Origin: Pelagibacteraceae bacterium
GTDB lineage: Bacteria > Pseudomonadota > Alphaproteobacteria > Pelagibacterales > Pelagibacteraceae
Assembly (NCBI GenBank): GCA_018402735.1
Contig: JAGYIF010000001.1
Coordinates: forward strand, 186,001 to 250,000
DNA length: 64,000 bases
Direction of reading: 5' to 3'
The notes under the pieces are model-generated. The model ran no database searches and was not told the DNA's origin. It worked only from the letters and a program-made list of their open reading frames with translations. The translations under genes were made by a program, and so were the position numbers. This document shows positions 26,152-48,941 of the stretch, in pieces (the stretch's first letter is position 1; every line of letters begins with the position of its first letter).

Positions 26152-26314
26152 AAAACTCTGTTCACCCAACTGTTTTTGTTACCTGAGATCTTGAATCCTT
26201 CGGTGGAGCAACCTGCTCTCTTTCCAGAGTTTTTATGTATACGGTCCTTTTCCCTGAGATTTTCCTGGGCAGTTGATCCTTCGGAGCTATATTAAAATAG
26301 TCTCTCCCGTACAT
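26152..26314 (-). ncRNA. Tandem glycine riboswitch upstream of gcvT
   Basis: On the minus strand two glycine aptamers follow one another. The first has CCGAAGGAUC and CUCAGGGAAAAGGACCG, with its P1 formed by about 26307-26314 and 26235-26244. The second has CACCGAAGGAUUCAAG and CUCAGGUAAC; its P1 pairs 26225-26233 with 26152-26160, 9 bp, ending one base before the gcvT ATG. No terminator hairpin separates it from the gene, so control of translation initiation is more likely than attenuation. Glycine riboswitches on gcvT are commonly ON switches. Confidence 0.95.
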
Positions 26315-26559
26315 TTTTTATTTTAAACCAAAAAAAAAGAGAAACAACTGTCTATTAGTTGTATGAAAACTAATAATAATCATACTTTTTTTTCCTCCTT
26401 AAGCTTCCAGCTTTGAGAATGAACAAGTATTATTCTGTCAATCGAATCATAAGCATTAACTGAGTTAATACTTAAAACGTGCCATTTTTTAGCATTTGTC
26501 AAAAAAAACAATTTAATGCCAACGATTATTTGGGTTCGTTTTTCTAACTACTCTTTTTT

Positions 26560-27866: not shown

Positions 27867-28415
27867 ATGTGGCTTAAGTTTGAAAATAGTCAATTGCCGC
27901 TCCTCACCAGAGTAATTTTATTCTTTCAAAGAAGGAAATTTGGCTTTGATCTTAATCCAACCAAGGCCTGGGGGGTGGTGCCAAGATTGATGCTTGGTAT
28001 GAATTTTTTCTTTAAGTTACTAGTAAGTAAAAGTGCTAAGATTGACTCTGGCTTAAGAACGCTTATTTCAGTCAAAATTTCACAAATTAATAACTGTGAG
28101 TTTTGCATTGATATGAACAGTCATTTATTTTTTGAAAGTAAGGGCGAAACTGAAAAAATAAACCAGTTAAAACATTGGCAGGAAAGTAATGTTTATTCAT
28201 TAAAAGAAAAGGTTGCCCTGGAATATGCAGAAACCATAACCATTACAGGTCGATCCGTTTCACAAGCATTGCAAGCAAAATTACTGGAACATTTTAAAAA
28301 AGAGGAAATCATTGAACTTACAGCAATCATTGCCTATCAAAATCTATCTAGTAAATTTAATAGTGCACTCGATATCAAGCCCAATGGATTTTGTGATATC
28401 GGCAAATCTAAATAA
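27867..28415 (+). CDS. AhpD-like / carboxymuconolactone decarboxylase family protein
   Basis: 182 aa, all-helical. The CxxC in NNCEFCIDMNSHL followed by His six residues later is the redox motif of AhpD-type peroxidase proteins. The N-terminal part (VVPRLMLGMNFFFKLL) and LKEKVALEYAETIT fit the CMD family. It probably acts in peroxide or thiol chemistry, consistent with its divergent msrB neighbour. The 3' end overlaps the glycosyltransferase gene by 8 bp, tail to tail. Confidence 0.78.
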   Translation: MWLKFENSQLPLLTRVILFFQRRKFGFDLNPTKAWGVVPRLMLGMNFFFKLLVSKSAKIDSGLRTLISVKISQINNCEFCIDMNSHLFFESKGETEKINQLKHWQESNVYSLKEKVALEYAETITITGRSVSQALQAKLLEHFKKEEIIELTAIIAYQNLSSKFNSALDIKPNGFCDIGKSK

Positions 28416-29721
28416 AACTCTTCTCATTAACTTTTAAAAAATTAAGTAATTTTTTTTGCTCAAAACTTAAACTAGTCTCACTAATAATTAATTCCTCATA
28501 AACTTTTTTCAAATCTAAAATTATATCGACATCAGTGAACACTTTTTTTGCAATTTCAATCTTGTGTAGGCACTGGGTTAAAGTCTTCATCACGGATGAA
28601 GTTGAGGAGGTAACTTTGCTCAAGCATTCAATTACCTTCTCATCATTACTGAGCATAAAGCAAAAGCCGCCATCTTTAGTTGAAAAAAAATGCGAACTTT
28701 TATCTAATTTTTTTGATAATACCTGATCTAATTCATCAACATTTAATGATGGAATATCTGATCCAAGCAGAGCAACGGTACCAACAGTCTCTAGTGAAAG
28801 TTTACTTAGATCACTCATGATCAAGTTTAGACCCTGATCATGATTAATAAATTTACCTTTATAAATATTATTAAAAGAATTTAACTTTTCTTCATCAATG
28901 CCTTTACAAACTTTAATGAAATGAATTTTTTTCCTTTGTTGTAATTGTCTCAAATTTGCATTGGTAATGTTAATAAAATTTTCATTTAATTGATTTACAA
29001 ATTTATCATTCAATGTTTTCCTCAATCTTGATTTACTCTCGGCTGAATGCGGATTTTTTATAAATACTCCAAGTGCGATGTGTTTTTTAACTTGATAAAA
29101 CTTGATTGCTTGAAGAATTGTTTTCCATAAAGTTTTTAAACTCTGATACACCCTTTTATTTTTATATTTGATGGCAGAGGTGATAATTTTTTTATTAATG
29201 ATGTTGAGTTTAATATTTAAGGATTTGATCCTCCAAATAAACTCATGATCTTCGCCCACAGATAAATTCTCATTGAATCCTCCAGCAAAGTTAAATAAAT
29301 TCTTGCTCATCAAAAAAGATTGGTCACCAAAAGGAATACCAAAGTTTTTTGTTCTAAAATTAGCTCCAGCCGCAATCCACCAACAATTTACCTGATCAAA
29401 TTCAAGTAAAAATGTACTTACAGCAAATTCATCAAGTCCCATCACATCCGGTAATTGAATGTGCTCAATATTTGAGTCTAGATGGAGAAACCATAGGTTT
29501 TTAGAAGTTGAAAGGTTTGCACCTTTATTTAAAGCCTTCGCCCTTGATGAGTTTTTTACTAAATGTAATTGATCTACTTCAAGTTTTGCTGATTTTATAA
29601 AATCATTAGTCTCATCGCTAACCATGATGATTTCACAATCTTTAAATTTTTCCCTTAGTTGTTTTATGAGTTTGAAATCATGTTCACGTCTTGCAACGGG
29701 AATGATGATGCTAAGATCCAT
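28408..29721 (-). CDS. Fusion of a family 2 glycosyltransferase and a DUF2064 (TIGR04282-like) domain
   Basis: 437 aa, two domains. Residues 1-205 are a GT-A glycosyltransferase (LSIIIPV, ALNKGANL, FLHLDSN at 79-84, GIPFGDQSFL at 128-137, GEDHEF at 156-161), like the TIGR04283 family. From residue 215 a DUF2064/TIGR04282 domain follows (GVFIKNPHSAESKSRLRK, LLGSDIPSL, KDGGFCFML), a nucleotidyltransferase-like fold. These two families are often neighbours in so-called arsenosugar-type loci; here they are one chain. Start overlaps a 52-aa ORF as TAATG. Substrate is unknown. Confidence 0.8.
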   Translation of the reverse strand: MDLSIIIPVARREHDFKLIKQLREKFKDCEIIMVSDETNDFIKSAKLEVDQLHLVKNSSRAKALNKGANLSTSKNLWFLHLDSNIEHIQLPDVMGLDEFAVSTFLLEFDQVNCWWIAAGANFRTKNFGIPFGDQSFLMSKNLFNFAGGFNENLSVGEDHEFIWRIKSLNIKLNIINKKIITSAIKYKNKRVYQSLKTLWKTILQAIKFYQVKKHIALGVFIKNPHSAESKSRLRKTLNDKFVNQLNENFINITNANLRQLQQRKKIHFIKVCKGIDEEKLNSFNNIYKGKFINHDQGLNLIMSDLSKLSLETVGTVALLGSDIPSLNVDELDQVLSKKLDKSSHFFSTKDGGFCFMLSNDEKVIECLSKVTSSTSSVMKTLTQCLHKIEIAKKVFTDVDIILDLKKVYEELIISETSLSFEQKKLLNFLKVNEKSFI

Positions 29722-29879
29722 TATTTACGAATGAATAAATCCCTTATAGTCGCAATAGCAATAAACCAATATAATCTTAACTTATTCCAAAAGCCCTTCT
29801 TTTTTCTAAGAAGATAATATTGATCAATACCACACTCGGTCTTGATGAAATTGTTAATGTTGTCTTTTGAATCTTTCAT
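29721..29879 (-). CDS. Small ORF (52 aa), unknown, coupled to the glycosyltransferase fusion
   Basis: It starts inside the last codons of the TVP38-type gene (26-bp overlap) and its TAA overlaps the ATG of the glycosyltransferase fusion by one base. It is basic and aromatic: KTECGIDQYYLLRKKKGFW, then a single hydrophobic helix (YWFIAIATIRDLF). It may be a small membrane-associated partner of its neighbours. Family not recognised; the tight coupling is the main evidence. Confidence 0.5.
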   Translation of the reverse strand: MKDSKDNINNFIKTECGIDQYYLLRKKKGFWNKLRLYWFIAIATIRDLFIRK

Positions 29880-30531
29880 AAATTTTTTTTGTTATTATAG
29901 GCAAAAGTCCAAGGGCTGAGAATGAAATAATAACTGGTACAGTTAAGATATCCTTTACATCGTTGATTTGTGCCAGCTGAACGCCTGCATTTACAAATAA
30001 AATTGTGGCAGGCAACATGCCTAATTGTGAAATCCAATAAAAGTTAGTCCACTTCATATGTGTTAAGCCAAAAGTTAGATTAATGACAAAGAATGGAAAA
30101 ATCGGACTTAAACGTAGAAACAATAAATAAAGAAGCCCTTCCTCTTTAATGCCTTGATTAATTGTACCTAAATATTTTTGATATTTTCCTTGGACATAAT
30201 CTTTAAATAAATACCTTGAAAGTAAAAAACATAATGTTGATCCTATGGTGCTAGCAAATGAAGTTAAGATAACTCCAGGCCATAAACCAAAAAACGCTCC
30301 AGCAAGCAGAGTCTTCAATACTGCAATGGGTAAAGCAAATGCAGTAACCATGATGTAGATTAGAAAGAAAATTAAATAATAAAAAAGTGGGTTTGCATTA
30401 ATAAGTAATTGTAAGTCCTCATATTTTTGTTTGATTATCTCTAAACTTAAAACATCATTATAATTAAATCCAACAATGATAATAACCAGGGCTAAAAATA
30501 AAAAAACGATGATCTTTTTATTTAACTGCAA
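29854..30531 (-). CDS. TVP38/TMEM64 family (SNARE-associated) membrane protein
   Basis: 225 aa, about six membrane segments. The core has FALPIAVLKTLLAGAFFGLWPG, ASTIGSTLCFLLSRYLFKD and LLFLRLSPIFPFFVINLTFGL, the family's re-entrant helix motifs. Eukaryotic and bacterial relatives are linked to lipid scrambling or transport. It starts with TTG at 30531 inside one copy of a 33-bp repeat, and GGAGGATCAAG just before it is a good ribosome site. Before the DUF3047 insertion it would have started only a few bases from the radical SAM stop. Confidence 0.85.
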   Translation of the reverse strand: MQLNKKIIVFLFLALVIIIVGFNYNDVLSLEIIKQKYEDLQLLINANPLFYYLIFFLIYIMVTAFALPIAVLKTLLAGAFFGLWPGVILTSFASTIGSTLCFLLSRYLFKDYVQGKYQKYLGTINQGIKEEGLLYLLFLRLSPIFPFFVINLTFGLTHMKWTNFYWISQLGMLPATILFVNAGVQLAQINDVKDILTVPVIISFSALGLLPIITKKIYERFKRQH

Positions 30532-30545
30532 CTTGATCCTCCAAG
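30513..30545. repeat. 33-bp direct repeat, left copy
   Basis: Identical over 33 bases to 31399-31431. This copy holds the ribosome site and first codons of the TVP38-type gene. Together the copies bracket 853 bp containing one GC-rich gene. Confidence 0.92.
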
Positions 30546-30688
30546 GTTATAGCTATTAACTATATGCTTAAAAAAAAGAGCAATAGTTACATTTATAATG
30601 TTAATTATAATATAAATTATAATTTTAGGTTTAAAAACTTTTAAATAATTTATATAAAATAAAAAAGATTTTGATAAACTTCAAATTT

Positions 30689-31348
30689 CTAATCAGCGGA
30701 AAACCATATATCCTTATAATAACCGCTGGATGGCAGCCCGCTATTGTCACAATCAGTCATCACAGCCACACCGTCAATGCTGGTAATATCCGCCCCGAAG
30801 AATTTTTTGAAGTCCTCACGCACGTTACGCACTTCACTCACCCATTGTCCCAGTTTTTCTGGTGGTCCGGAACGTGCGGCCACCATTATAGCCCGATCCG
30901 TGAAAGCATTAGGCCATGATGCTCCGACAGGCTGGCTATTGGCCCAGACATAATTGACAGCCTTGACCCGCCACGGGAGTAAACTATTAGGTGCATATAC
31001 GACATAAATTCTTGCTGCGTAGTCATCACCGGCTTTGGTGGTATCATTCAAGCCTGGATGCGCGCCATCAACGCGCCACGTCCAGTGTAACATCGGCGTC
31101 TTTGTCAAATCCACAGAAATCTTACGATACAAAGCTGAGGCCGTGTTCTTGCACATTGCTTGCAGCGTCATAGGAGCTGCTTTACCTATCAGTTGGTAAC
31201 TTGTATTGCCTTTGAACGAACGCTCTTCCCAATAAGACAGTTCGTCCTGCGTAAACGTTCCAATAGCCGTTCTTTTACCTGTCTCGGCCTCTACTGATAA
31301 GGCAACCGCCAAAAGTAGCATAATGGTCATCAGTAGAATTCTTTTCAT
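30689..31348 (-). CDS. DUF3047 secreted protein, GC-rich, probably acquired
   Basis: 219 aa. A signal peptide (about residues 1-21, ending VEA) precedes a DUF3047 domain: MLHWTWRVDG, GDDYAARIYVVY, YVWANSQP, SEVRNVREDF and VAVMTDCDNSG. The family is periplasmic and of unknown function. Base composition is sharply different: lines inside the gene are about 47-58% G+C against roughly a third in the neighbours, with codons such as CTG, GCG and CGC. It lies between two 33-bp direct repeats and splits the radical SAM and TVP38 genes. It looks like a recent transfer, possibly from a gammaproteobacterium. Confidence 0.88.
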   Translation of the reverse strand: MKRILLMTIMLLLAVALSVEAETGKRTAIGTFTQDELSYWEERSFKGNTSYQLIGKAAPMTLQAMCKNTASALYRKISVDLTKTPMLHWTWRVDGAHPGLNDTTKAGDDYAARIYVVYAPNSLLPWRVKAVNYVWANSQPVGASWPNAFTDRAIMVAARSGPPEKLGQWVSEVRNVREDFKKFFGADITSIDGVAVMTDCDNSGLPSSGYYKDIWFSAD

Positions 31349-31376
31349 TCAGTTATCTTTTTTATTTCAAAAAACA

Positions 31377-31405
31377 AAAAAGAAAACTGGTCTGGTTTTC
31401 TTTTT
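31377..31405. terminator. Hairpin between the radical SAM and DUF3047 genes
   Basis: Perfect 11-bp stem AAAAAGAAAAC (31377-31387) with GTTTTCTTTTT (31395-31405), 7-base loop, T-rich on either strand. It begins just after the radical SAM stop on the minus strand. Stem is mostly A-T, so strength is uncertain. Most of it belongs to the inserted segment. Confidence 0.6.
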
Positions 31406-31431
31406 ATTTAACTGCAACTTGATCCTCCAAG
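31399..31431. repeat. 33-bp direct repeat, right copy
   Basis: Identical to 30513-30545. This copy encodes the last residues of the radical SAM protein (LGGSSCS and stop) plus nine bases beyond. The position at the 3' end of a gene, restored by the repeat, resembles an integrase attachment site. Confidence 0.92.
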
Positions 31432-32310
31432 AACACAAAACTTTGAGCAATGAGGATGATTAAGATAAATTCTTTGCATAGATGATTTTAAGGATGAGCC
31501 AAGATCAAAAGCCTCATCATAAGGTAATAACGTGCAAGCAATTACCGATGGTTTTGTACTTCCTTTTTTCTTCACAATCATTCGGGATGAGGAACACATC
31601 ACAGTGTTAGGGTTTTTATTCAAGAGCGTCCAACATTCTGTTGTGATCTCAGGCGTTTCTTGTTTAGCATCCATTTCTGTAAAAGTGACAAGATCCTTCG
31701 TTGAATAAGCATCTATCGGTAATTTATTTTTTAAAATAAATTCAGCAAATACCTTTCTTGTTTCCTCCTCGCTTTCACCCCACATTAAGCGTGTGGCCAA
31801 GCTCATCTTAAACTCATTATCTTTCAACCACTTTAGTCCCTCCATCATAGGTTCGTAGCTATGAGATCCTCTAATTTCTTCGTGTTTCAATTGGTCAACA
31901 TGATCAATTGAAACCCTAAAGGTTAATCTTTCTCGGTCAATCATTAAGATTTCTGACTTTTTATTTAGCATTGGCTTCATAGCATTGGTTAATACCAATA
32001 CATCATTACCATGCTTAGCTGCATGATTTAACATCTTAGGAAATTCCTTATTTAAAAAAGGCTCACCACCAGTGAAACCTATTTCTGATACATTAAATCC
32101 TTCTTCTGTTGCCTCGTTCATGAACGTCAAATATTCGTCAAAGCTTAAATAAGAAAGACGATCATTACTTGGACTGCTTTCTATATAACAATTCTTACAA
32201 GTTAGGTTACACAAGGTTCCTGTGTTAAACCAAAGTGTTTTAAGATCTTTTGCTTCTATGAAGGCTCTTGATTTGCCGTCAGCAGTTAATGTTAAGTTAT
32301 TAAATTTCAT
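31408..32310 (-). CDS. Radical SAM protein with C-terminal cysteine cluster
   Basis: 300 aa. The cluster motif is Cys34-x3-Cys38-x2-Cys41 (CNLTCKNC), followed by FTGGEP at 79-84 for SAM binding. The C-terminus has Cys259, Cys288, Cys292 and Cys299, spaced like a SPASM/twitch auxiliary cluster, and ends GGSSCS. Such proteins modify peptides, sugars or small thiols. A 71-aa protein gene lies 45 bp upstream on the same strand and could be partner or substrate. The downstream TVP38 and glycosyltransferase genes were probably in the same operon before the DUF3047 gene was inserted. It is not close to ArsS by motif. Confidence 0.82.
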   Translation of the reverse strand: MKFNNLTLTADGKSRAFIEAKDLKTLWFNTGTLCNLTCKNCYIESSPSNDRLSYLSFDEYLTFMNEATEEGFNVSEIGFTGGEPFLNKEFPKMLNHAAKHGNDVLVLTNAMKPMLNKKSEILMIDRERLTFRVSIDHVDQLKHEEIRGSHSYEPMMEGLKWLKDNEFKMSLATRLMWGESEEETRKVFAEFILKNKLPIDAYSTKDLVTFTEMDAKQETPEITTECWTLLNKNPNTVMCSSSRMIVKKKGSTKPSVIACTLLPYDEAFDLGSSLKSSMQRIYLNHPHCSKFCVLGGSSCS

Positions 32311-47210: not shown

Positions 47211-48941
47211 TTAATTTAAAGTAGGACTAAACTTTTTTTTTGAAGAATTTTTTGGTCTTGATCTAAATCCGCCTCTGCTAGCTGCACCAAATTTACTGCC
47301 GCCGCCAGGTTTTCTATCAAAAGAGTTTCTGGATTTTGAAAAACCAGGTTTTGGTCTTGGTGCAAAACTATCTTTTTTATCTCTAAATCCATCTTCTCTT
47401 CTCGGTTTATCAGTGTAATCAGAAGTTTTGTTTCTGGTATATCCTTCATTTTTTGTTTTAGCTCTAAATCCTTCTCTTCTCTCGCCACCAAAACCACTCT
47501 TTTTTCTTTCTTGATAGCCACCTTCTCTATTGGGCCTATCACCAAACGATTTTGGATTTTTTCTAGCGTATCCTTCGTTTTTTGGTTTTGATTTAAATTC
47601 TTTTCTAGGTTCTGCCGAAAATTCTGCTGGTTTTCTATCTGAAAAATCTCTTTTATCTTCTCTTGGTTTTCTATCTGAGAAATCTCTTTTATCTTCTCTT
47701 CTATCTGATCTTCCGAATCCACTTTTTTTCTTGTCTCTAAAATTAAATTTACTTTTTCCTGTTCTAAATCCATCTCTTTTGCCACTTTTGCCAAATGATT
47801 TCTTTTTACTAAAGTTATCTCTTCTATCGTTTGATCTATTATCTGAAGAACTTTTTAATCCTGGATTTAAAATTTTTTCTATTTCAAACCATTTTCTCTT
47901 GTCGCTTGGGGTTACAAAGCTCCAAGCTGTTCCGCTTGCTCCTGCTCTTCCAGTTCTACCCATTCTGTGAATAAAATCTTCCGCTTGCTGCGGTAAATCA
48001 TAATTAATGACGTGTTCAATGTGAGGAATATCCAATCCTCTAGCTGCAATGTCTGTTGCGACTAATACGTGAATTTTATTTGCTCTAAACTTACTGATGA
48101 CAATATTTCTTTTATTTTGTCTTAAATTACCATGCAGAGAATCTGCTTCGAATCCTTCTTTGCTTAAGTTGGATGCTAATTTTTTTGCATTATGTTTTGT
48201 TTTTACAAACACAAGAGTTGCTCCATGTTTGATTTTAATTTGCTCAACTAAAGTATTGTATTTATCTTCCTGCCGAAGCTGAACCACTTCTTGTTTAATA
48301 GTAATTAAAGTTGCATTGGCAGAAGCCACACTTACTCGCTCAGCATTATTTAAATATCTAGAAGATAATCTTTCAATGGATGGAGGAATGGTTGCAGAAA
48401 ACATTAGAGTTTGTTTTTCTTTTGGTAAAAATTTAATAATTTCATCAATTTGAATGCTAAATCCCATATCCAACATTCGATCCATTTCATCTAAGATTAA
48501 TAAATCAACCTGATTAATGATGAGAGATTTTCTATTTAAATGGTCATTAACTCGACCAGGGGTCCCAACAATGATTTGAGGTTTTGTTTTTAATCTTTTT
48601 AACTGTTTATTCATTGGCTCGCCGCCAACTAAACAAACGCTTCGAATAACGCTTTGTTGAAATAGTAATTTTTCAATGACATCATTTACTTGTTTTGCAA
48701 GTTCACGGGTTGGGACTAAAATAATTGCTCTTTTTGTTTTTTGACTAGCAATTAATTCAATCATCGGAATACAAAAAGCAGCTGTTTTACCAGTTCCTGT
48801 TTGTGCCGATGCTAAAATATCTTTTTTTTGTAAAATAATTGGTATCGCTTTAATTTGAATAGGAGTTGGAGTGTCAAACTTCATCTTAATTAAAGATGCA
48901 TTCAGACTCGGATTTAGTTTCAACTCTTGAAAATGGTTCAT
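47211..48941 (-). CDS. rhlE: DEAD-box RNA helicase (RhlE-like) with long basic tail
   Basis: 576 aa. The core (1-355) shows FDTPTPIQIKAIP (Q motif), AQTGTGKTAAF (I), ILDEMDRMLD (II, with Met in place of Ala of DEAD), FSATIP (III) and HRMGRTGRAG (VI). From about residue 365 a 210-aa tail of Arg, Lys, Gly, Phe, Asp and Ser repeats (RDKKKSGFGRSDRREDKRD, SDRKP, EGYARK and so on) is disordered and RNA-binding in character. RhlE proteins unwind RNA in ribosome assembly and cold adaptation. A 36-bp tandem DNA repeat lies in the tail. Confidence 0.93.
   Translation of the reverse strand: MNHFQELKLNPSLNASLIKMKFDTPTPIQIKAIPIILQKKDILASAQTGTGKTAAFCIPMIELIASQKTKRAIILVPTRELAKQVNDVIEKLLFQQSVIRSVCLVGGEPMNKQLKRLKTKPQIIVGTPGRVNDHLNRKSLIINQVDLLILDEMDRMLDMGFSIQIDEIIKFLPKEKQTLMFSATIPPSIERLSSRYLNNAERVSVASANATLITIKQEVVQLRQEDKYNTLVEQIKIKHGATLVFVKTKHNAKKLASNLSKEGFEADSLHGNLRQNKRNIVISKFRANKIHVLVATDIAARGLDIPHIEHVINYDLPQQAEDFIHRMGRTGRAGASGTAWSFVTPSDKRKWFEIEKILNPGLKSSSDNRSNDRRDNFSKKKSFGKSGKRDGFRTGKSKFNFRDKKKSGFGRSDRREDKRDFSDRKPREDKRDFSDRKPAEFSAEPRKEFKSKPKNEGYARKNPKSFGDRPNREGGYQERKKSGFGGERREGFRAKTKNEGYTRNKTSDYTDKPRREDGFRDKKDSFAPRPKPGFSKSRNSFDRKPGGGSKFGAASRGGFRSRPKNSSKKKFSPTLN
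47629..47700. repeat. Tandem 36-bp repeat inside the helicase tail
   Basis: Two adjacent 36-bp units, 47629-47664 and 47665-47700, differ at one base. They encode the duplicated peptide REDKRDFSDRKP. A recent in-frame duplication in a low-complexity tail that can vary in copy number. Confidence 0.9.

Follow-up and report, generated by a model that had tools for sequence, protein, structure and literature searches.

Islands inserted by tyrosine integrases are bounded by attL and attR sites at the 3' ends of genes. Omelchenko et al. in 2003 reportedly described mosaic operons formed by horizontal transfer (cited in PMC1274311). Arsenosugar clusters combine ArsS (TIGR04167), the glycosyltransferase families TIGR04283 and TIGR04282, and TVP38. 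Elements of the IS1202 group make unusually long target duplications, of 16–28 bp (PMC10132070). We compared with these systems a locus within the window, the whole 64,000-nucleotide stretch of Pelagibacteraceae DNA analysed here, in which the minus-strand gene order is radical SAM, an insert with a DUF3047 gene, TVP38/VTT and a glycosyltransferase fusion. The features of the locus, with positions in the window, are as follows.

28408..29721, minus strand: gene for a glycosyltransferase fusion, TIGR04283-like (118 bits, cut-off 182) plus TIGR04282-like (52 bits, cut-off 134)
29854..30531, minus strand: gene for a TVP38/VTT-domain membrane protein
30513..30545, minus strand: left 33-bp copy, with the ribosome-binding site and TTG start of the TVP38 gene; the radical SAM 3' end is repeated here in non-functional form
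30529-30531, minus strand: TTG start of the TVP38 gene, in the left copy
30538-30542, minus strand: GGAGG ribosome-binding site of the TVP38 gene, in the left copy
30546..31398, minus strand: insert of 853 bp, missing from relatives
30546..30688, minus strand: the 143 bp of the insert downstream of the gene, extremely A+T-rich (13% G+C)
30689..31348, minus strand: DUF3047 gene, 219 aa, with a signal-peptide-like N-terminus (PF11249, E 2e-53)
31349..31398, minus strand: upstream part of the insert, the 50 bp before the gene, 24% G+C, starting with a weak hairpin across the junction
31399..31431, minus strand: right 33-bp copy, with the final radical SAM codons and stop
31408-31410, minus strand: radical SAM stop, in the right copy
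31408..32310, minus strand: radical SAM gene, distantly ArsS-like (61 bits to TIGR04167, cut-off 300)

The insert is bounded on both sides by the 33-bp sequence, CTTGGAGGATCAAGTTGCAGTTAAATAAAAAGA as read on the minus strand, in direct orientation and with a start-to-start spacing of 886 bp. The original prediction had reported two identical copies, and we found them to be exact in sequence and position. The pair is the longest exact direct repeat with 60-10000 bp spacing in the 517-kb contig, where the runner-up is a low-complexity repeat of 19 nt, and the expectation of such a 33-bp pair by chance is ~1e-8. The radical SAM frame runs through the repeat to give its last codons and stop (LGGSSCS*); within the same 33 bp, GGAGG is followed six bases on by the TTG start of TVP38. 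Both assignments made from the sequence beforehand, of the right copy to the radical SAM end and of the left copy to the TVP38 start region, can thus be read directly. Such reading also indicates that repeat bases 4 to 24, a 21-nt core, are required by the radical SAM or the TVP38 gene. Because this core is needed by both neighbours, an insertion that did not duplicate it would damage one of them; the 33-bp duplication leaves both genes whole despite the insertion.

At the right junction (31376-31410) we observed an 11-bp A/T-rich hairpin, formed where the insert opens with bases reverse-complementary to the end of the repeat. The hairpin could be a weak terminator or a trace of fold-back copying. 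Rfam gave no match at the insert, and a search for promoters and terminators returned none beyond shuffled expectation. Elsewhere in the window we noted a glycine riboswitch ahead of gcvT (26232-26319) and a 36-bp tandem duplication with 92% identity (47622-47693).

We next compared the locus with those of related genomes, where the original prediction had anticipated strains with a single repeat copy and no insert. Twelve such relatives were found (G570, G012, G002, G014, G021, G026, G034, G445, G452, G458, G463 and G469), all of which have the operon without the gene: the sequence is present in one copy, and the radical SAM stop is joined directly to TVP38. In G570 the 33-mer is identical, occurs once only and continues into TVP38. 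The closest relative, G001, whose radical SAM protein is 90% identical, likewise has one copy and is consistent with an empty site up to the end of its contig C9 (locus L004), which stops 16 nt beyond the last radical SAM codon; those 16 bases resemble the TVP38 start. L004 thus ends at the insertion point, perhaps because strains vary at this position. In a further relative, G468, the sequence 3' of the radical SAM gene differs and gives no match to TVP38. Overall, the insert was found in none of the thirteen relatives (G001 being readable to its contig end), and the other five genomes of the genus gave no DUF3047 match.

The insert gene belongs to the DUF3047 family, scoring 181 bits against the PF11249 profile, for which the gathering score is 27. 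A G+C content of about 50% had been ascribed to the DUF3047 gene; this holds for the gene (48.2%) but not for the whole insert (40.9%), in a contig of 30% G+C. G+C at third codon positions is 0.48 in the DUF3047 gene versus 0.31 and 0.25 in neighbouring genes. In contig C1 a 500-bp window reaches 44% G+C at two places only, of which the insert is by far the stronger, while 143-bp windows as G+C-poor as its downstream flank make up 0.15% of the contig. In a tree of 73 DUF3047 proteins with SH-aLRT support values, two Kordiimonadaceae sequences, the nearer of them 64% identical, make up the sister group of the window protein (SH-aLRT 99), and the next group outward is Salinisphaera (SH-aLRT 86). 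The window's own family contributes 31 DUF3047 sequences, which group together in a clade (SH-aLRT 99) that excludes the window protein, a gene phylogeny at odds with that of the host. Because the protein groups with Kordiimonadaceae and outside the family clade, we conclude that the gain of DUF3047 is a horizontal, lineage-specific insertion. The empty sites and the foreign phylogeny of the gene together bear out the original proposal that a recent insertion split an ancestral, overlapping radical SAM-TVP38 pair. The single copy in relatives is also what deletion between the repeats would leave if the gene were ancestral at the site and had been lost elsewhere by recombination; however, that history requires losses in at least twelve relatives, and it is contradicted by the foreign composition of the gene and by a clade that differs from the family's own DUF3047, such that we give it almost no credence.

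We found no donor DNA for the insert. The Kordiimonad contig that carries a related gene (L065) is 36-48% G+C. The very A+T-rich flanks of the insert point to some other genome or element of high A+T content as the immediate donor, rather than to direct transfer from a Kordiimonad-like genome. Since the repeat copies are still identical, there has been little time for the flanks to drift, which makes an A+T-rich immediate donor probable.

An insert between exact repeats could also arise during assembly, if an unrelated contig of 853 bp had been placed between two contigs whose ends have a 33-mer in common. A repeat of just this kind is what a small k-mer setting, for example 33, would produce; contig C12 of the same assembly is clearly chimeric, with a fall from 60% to 31% G+C near base 162,150, and the G001 contig described above also stops just beyond the radical SAM gene. 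By contrast, none of the three genes, the two neighbours and the inserted one, is disrupted, and the inserted gene sits in a cluster type known for DUF3047 elsewhere, where a random misjoin would rarely place it. Moreover, the flanks, at 13-24% G+C, are unlike the Kordiimonad contig, and the contig ends lack exact overlap, so that no k-mer signature is visible. Overall, we consider an assembly artefact unlikely. The 60% G+C portion of C12 in the window's assembly (G000) spans bases 1 to ~162,150, and a further contig of 8 kb (C5) is 63% G+C.

Foreign DNA bounded by identical direct repeats, with a gene 3' end restored by them, speaks for site-specific integration. In this reading the 33 bp would be att cores, belonging either to a small non-autonomous element or to what is left of a larger island, and a tyrosine recombinase supplied in trans would have moved this element or island into the 3' end of the radical SAM gene. 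The direct repeats around the insert agree with an integrase island, but no recombinase gene was found in the element or in the genome: PF00589, the tyrosine recombinase profile that includes XerC and XerD, gave no match across the 96.8%-complete window assembly, whereas 14/14 control genomes matched. The original prediction had itself noted that an integrase was absent, and this extends to the whole assembly. One gene alone lies between the repeats, the contig holds no second copy of the site and no other cargo, and the A+T-rich contigs of the assembly yielded no other insert between direct repeats, the longer direct repeats of the assembly belonging to contig C2 or to the G+C-rich portion of the chimeric contig C12. 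Neither viral and phage records nor phage and viral contigs contained DUF3047, and plasmid homologues were only distant. At the DUF3047 loci that we inspected in other genomes, there were no flanking repeats of comparable length. Apparent long flanking repeats at L101 and L093 were taken as artefacts of short loci, with L093 checked directly, and a dif-like reading of GTTAAAT in the repeat was discarded on by-eye comparison, the other half-site being mismatched. Site-specific integration is thus improbable, and we do not retain the suggestions that the insertion was att/integrase-like or that it represents a minimal mobile cargo unit, of which the contig holds no further example.

We also considered transposition with an unusually long target duplication and subsequent loss of the transposase, in the manner of the IS1202 group. 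The length of the duplications made by that group speaks for this route; however, 33 bp exceeds their range, the ends of the insert lack terminal inverted repeats, DUF3047 is the sole gene between the repeats, with no transposase beside it, and the genome contains no further copies. We regard such a transposition as very unlikely.

The position of the foreign insert can be compared with the surroundings of DUF3047 genes in other bacteria. In a Salinisphaera metagenome-assembled genome the order is ArsS (459 bits to TIGR04167, cut-off 300), glutaredoxin, DUF3047, TVP38 fused to an FAD oxidoreductase, and a TIGR04283 glycosyltransferase; in Chromohalobacter it is DUF3047, TIGR04283, TIGR04282 and TVP38. 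A TIGR04283-type gene lies inside the 3-kb flanks at 16/27 DUF3047 loci, mostly from Halomonadaceae, and the majority of DUF3047 matches in Halomonadaceae are near a TIGR04283 gene; with most cluster matches coming from this one family, these counts are not independent. TIGR04283 scored above its cut-off in 26/30 genomes with DUF3047 versus 1/14 controls. In the window's own family outside genus g4, the glycosyltransferase is present in 9/10 genomes with DUF3047, and DUF3047 in 9/11 genomes with the glycosyltransferase (Fisher p ~2e-5, taking a minimum count of genomes that lack both and ignoring kinship). Within g4, DUF3047 is widespread without this glycosyltransferase, and at the single g4 locus read (L215) it has other neighbours. 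G570, one of the relatives with an empty site, carries a native-type DUF3047 gene (contig C20, locus L214, 9621-10298) directly upstream of the same radical SAM gene, on the opposite side of it from the insertion site. The Kordiimonadaceae gene that is readable in context (L065) lies outside any arsenosugar cluster.

The window operon is labelled arsenosugar-type by resemblance: its radical SAM protein does not reach the curated ArsS cut-off, and its glycosyltransferase falls below those for TIGR04283 and TIGR04282, its similarity to both being clear yet diverged. DUF3047 is a recurrent neighbour of arsenosugar-type genes, such that the insertion site looks functional rather than arbitrary. 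Since the same gene stands beside the same kinds of neighbour in unrelated bacteria, it has probably joined its own pathway, entering an arsenosugar-type operon in which its product is useful. The predicted fold of the protein is a CBM-like beta-sandwich (mean pLDDT 84), for which the best structural matches other than axonemal proteins and C5-epimerases were CBM11 and NDUFAF1/CIA30 (Z ~11-12); a sequence search of solved structures with DUF3047 gave no significant relative. We predict a secreted, sugar-binding-like protein, although sharing a fold does not in itself establish function.

We consider the best explanation, and a fairly probable one, to be a recent one-gene horizontal gain at an overlapping gene pair in an arsenosugar-type operon, through non-homologous capture that selection then preserved. 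The captured fragment, 853 bp long and with its DUF3047 gene undamaged, would have inserted at the radical SAM/TVP38 junction, entering either by template switching or by repair of a break with long staggered ends. This capture would have re-copied 33 bp of host sequence and so kept the 21-nt core, with the TVP38 ribosome-binding site and start and the radical SAM stop, on both sides. Selection may then have acted as a filter, in that only insertions duplicating the shared core would leave both genes intact, and the insertion may have been retained since a secreted, sugar-binding-like DUF3047 protein works with the pathway. Our data show that the site is empty in relatives, that 33 bp are duplicated, that the gene has a foreign phylogeny and that DUF3047 is repeatedly linked to such clusters in other bacteria; the capture step we infer by elimination and from the geometry of the locus. 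ComEC gave no match in the window's assembly but matched in 10/14 control genomes, and natural transformation is therefore not supported. In the literature searched, we found no paper that describes a single-gene insertion accompanied by target duplication, and none that places DUF3047 in an arsenosugar cluster.

Such a capture would be a recent single-gene transfer in a streamlined genome with the scar still visible, as empty sites, an exact duplication, a foreign gene and a functional target, and it shows how a gene can join an operon of overlapping genes without harm to them. The tie to arsenosugar-type clusters also offers a lead to the role of DUF3047, a family of unknown function for which the literature search returned a single paper that names it. 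More speculatively, DUF3047 may be an unrecognised secreted part of arsenosugar-type pathways, with compact genomes capturing such genes in overlapping pairs by target-duplicating insertions. If this tentative reading were true, captures of one gene, made recently and without a mobile element, would be recognisable by a duplication over the ribosome-binding site, start and stop that the pair shares.

Compared with the described systems, the locus resembles attL/attR islands in having direct repeats around foreign DNA and a restored gene 3' end, but differs in lacking an integrase or other mobility gene, in consisting of a single gene in 853 bp, and in showing no reuse of the site. It shares a long direct target duplication with the IS1202 group (PMC10132070), although here the duplication is longer and is accompanied by neither terminal inverted repeats nor a transposase. 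As in mosaic operons, a foreign gene lies within a resident operon and has a phylogeny unlike that of its neighbours; here, however, the gene was added and not exchanged for a resident one, and the event is marked by a 33-bp duplication of overlapping gene ends. Lastly, although the window's radical SAM protein and glycosyltransferase score under the curated cut-offs, the window has the same set of families as arsenosugar clusters, and in the Salinisphaera cluster, too, DUF3047 adjoins TVP38.
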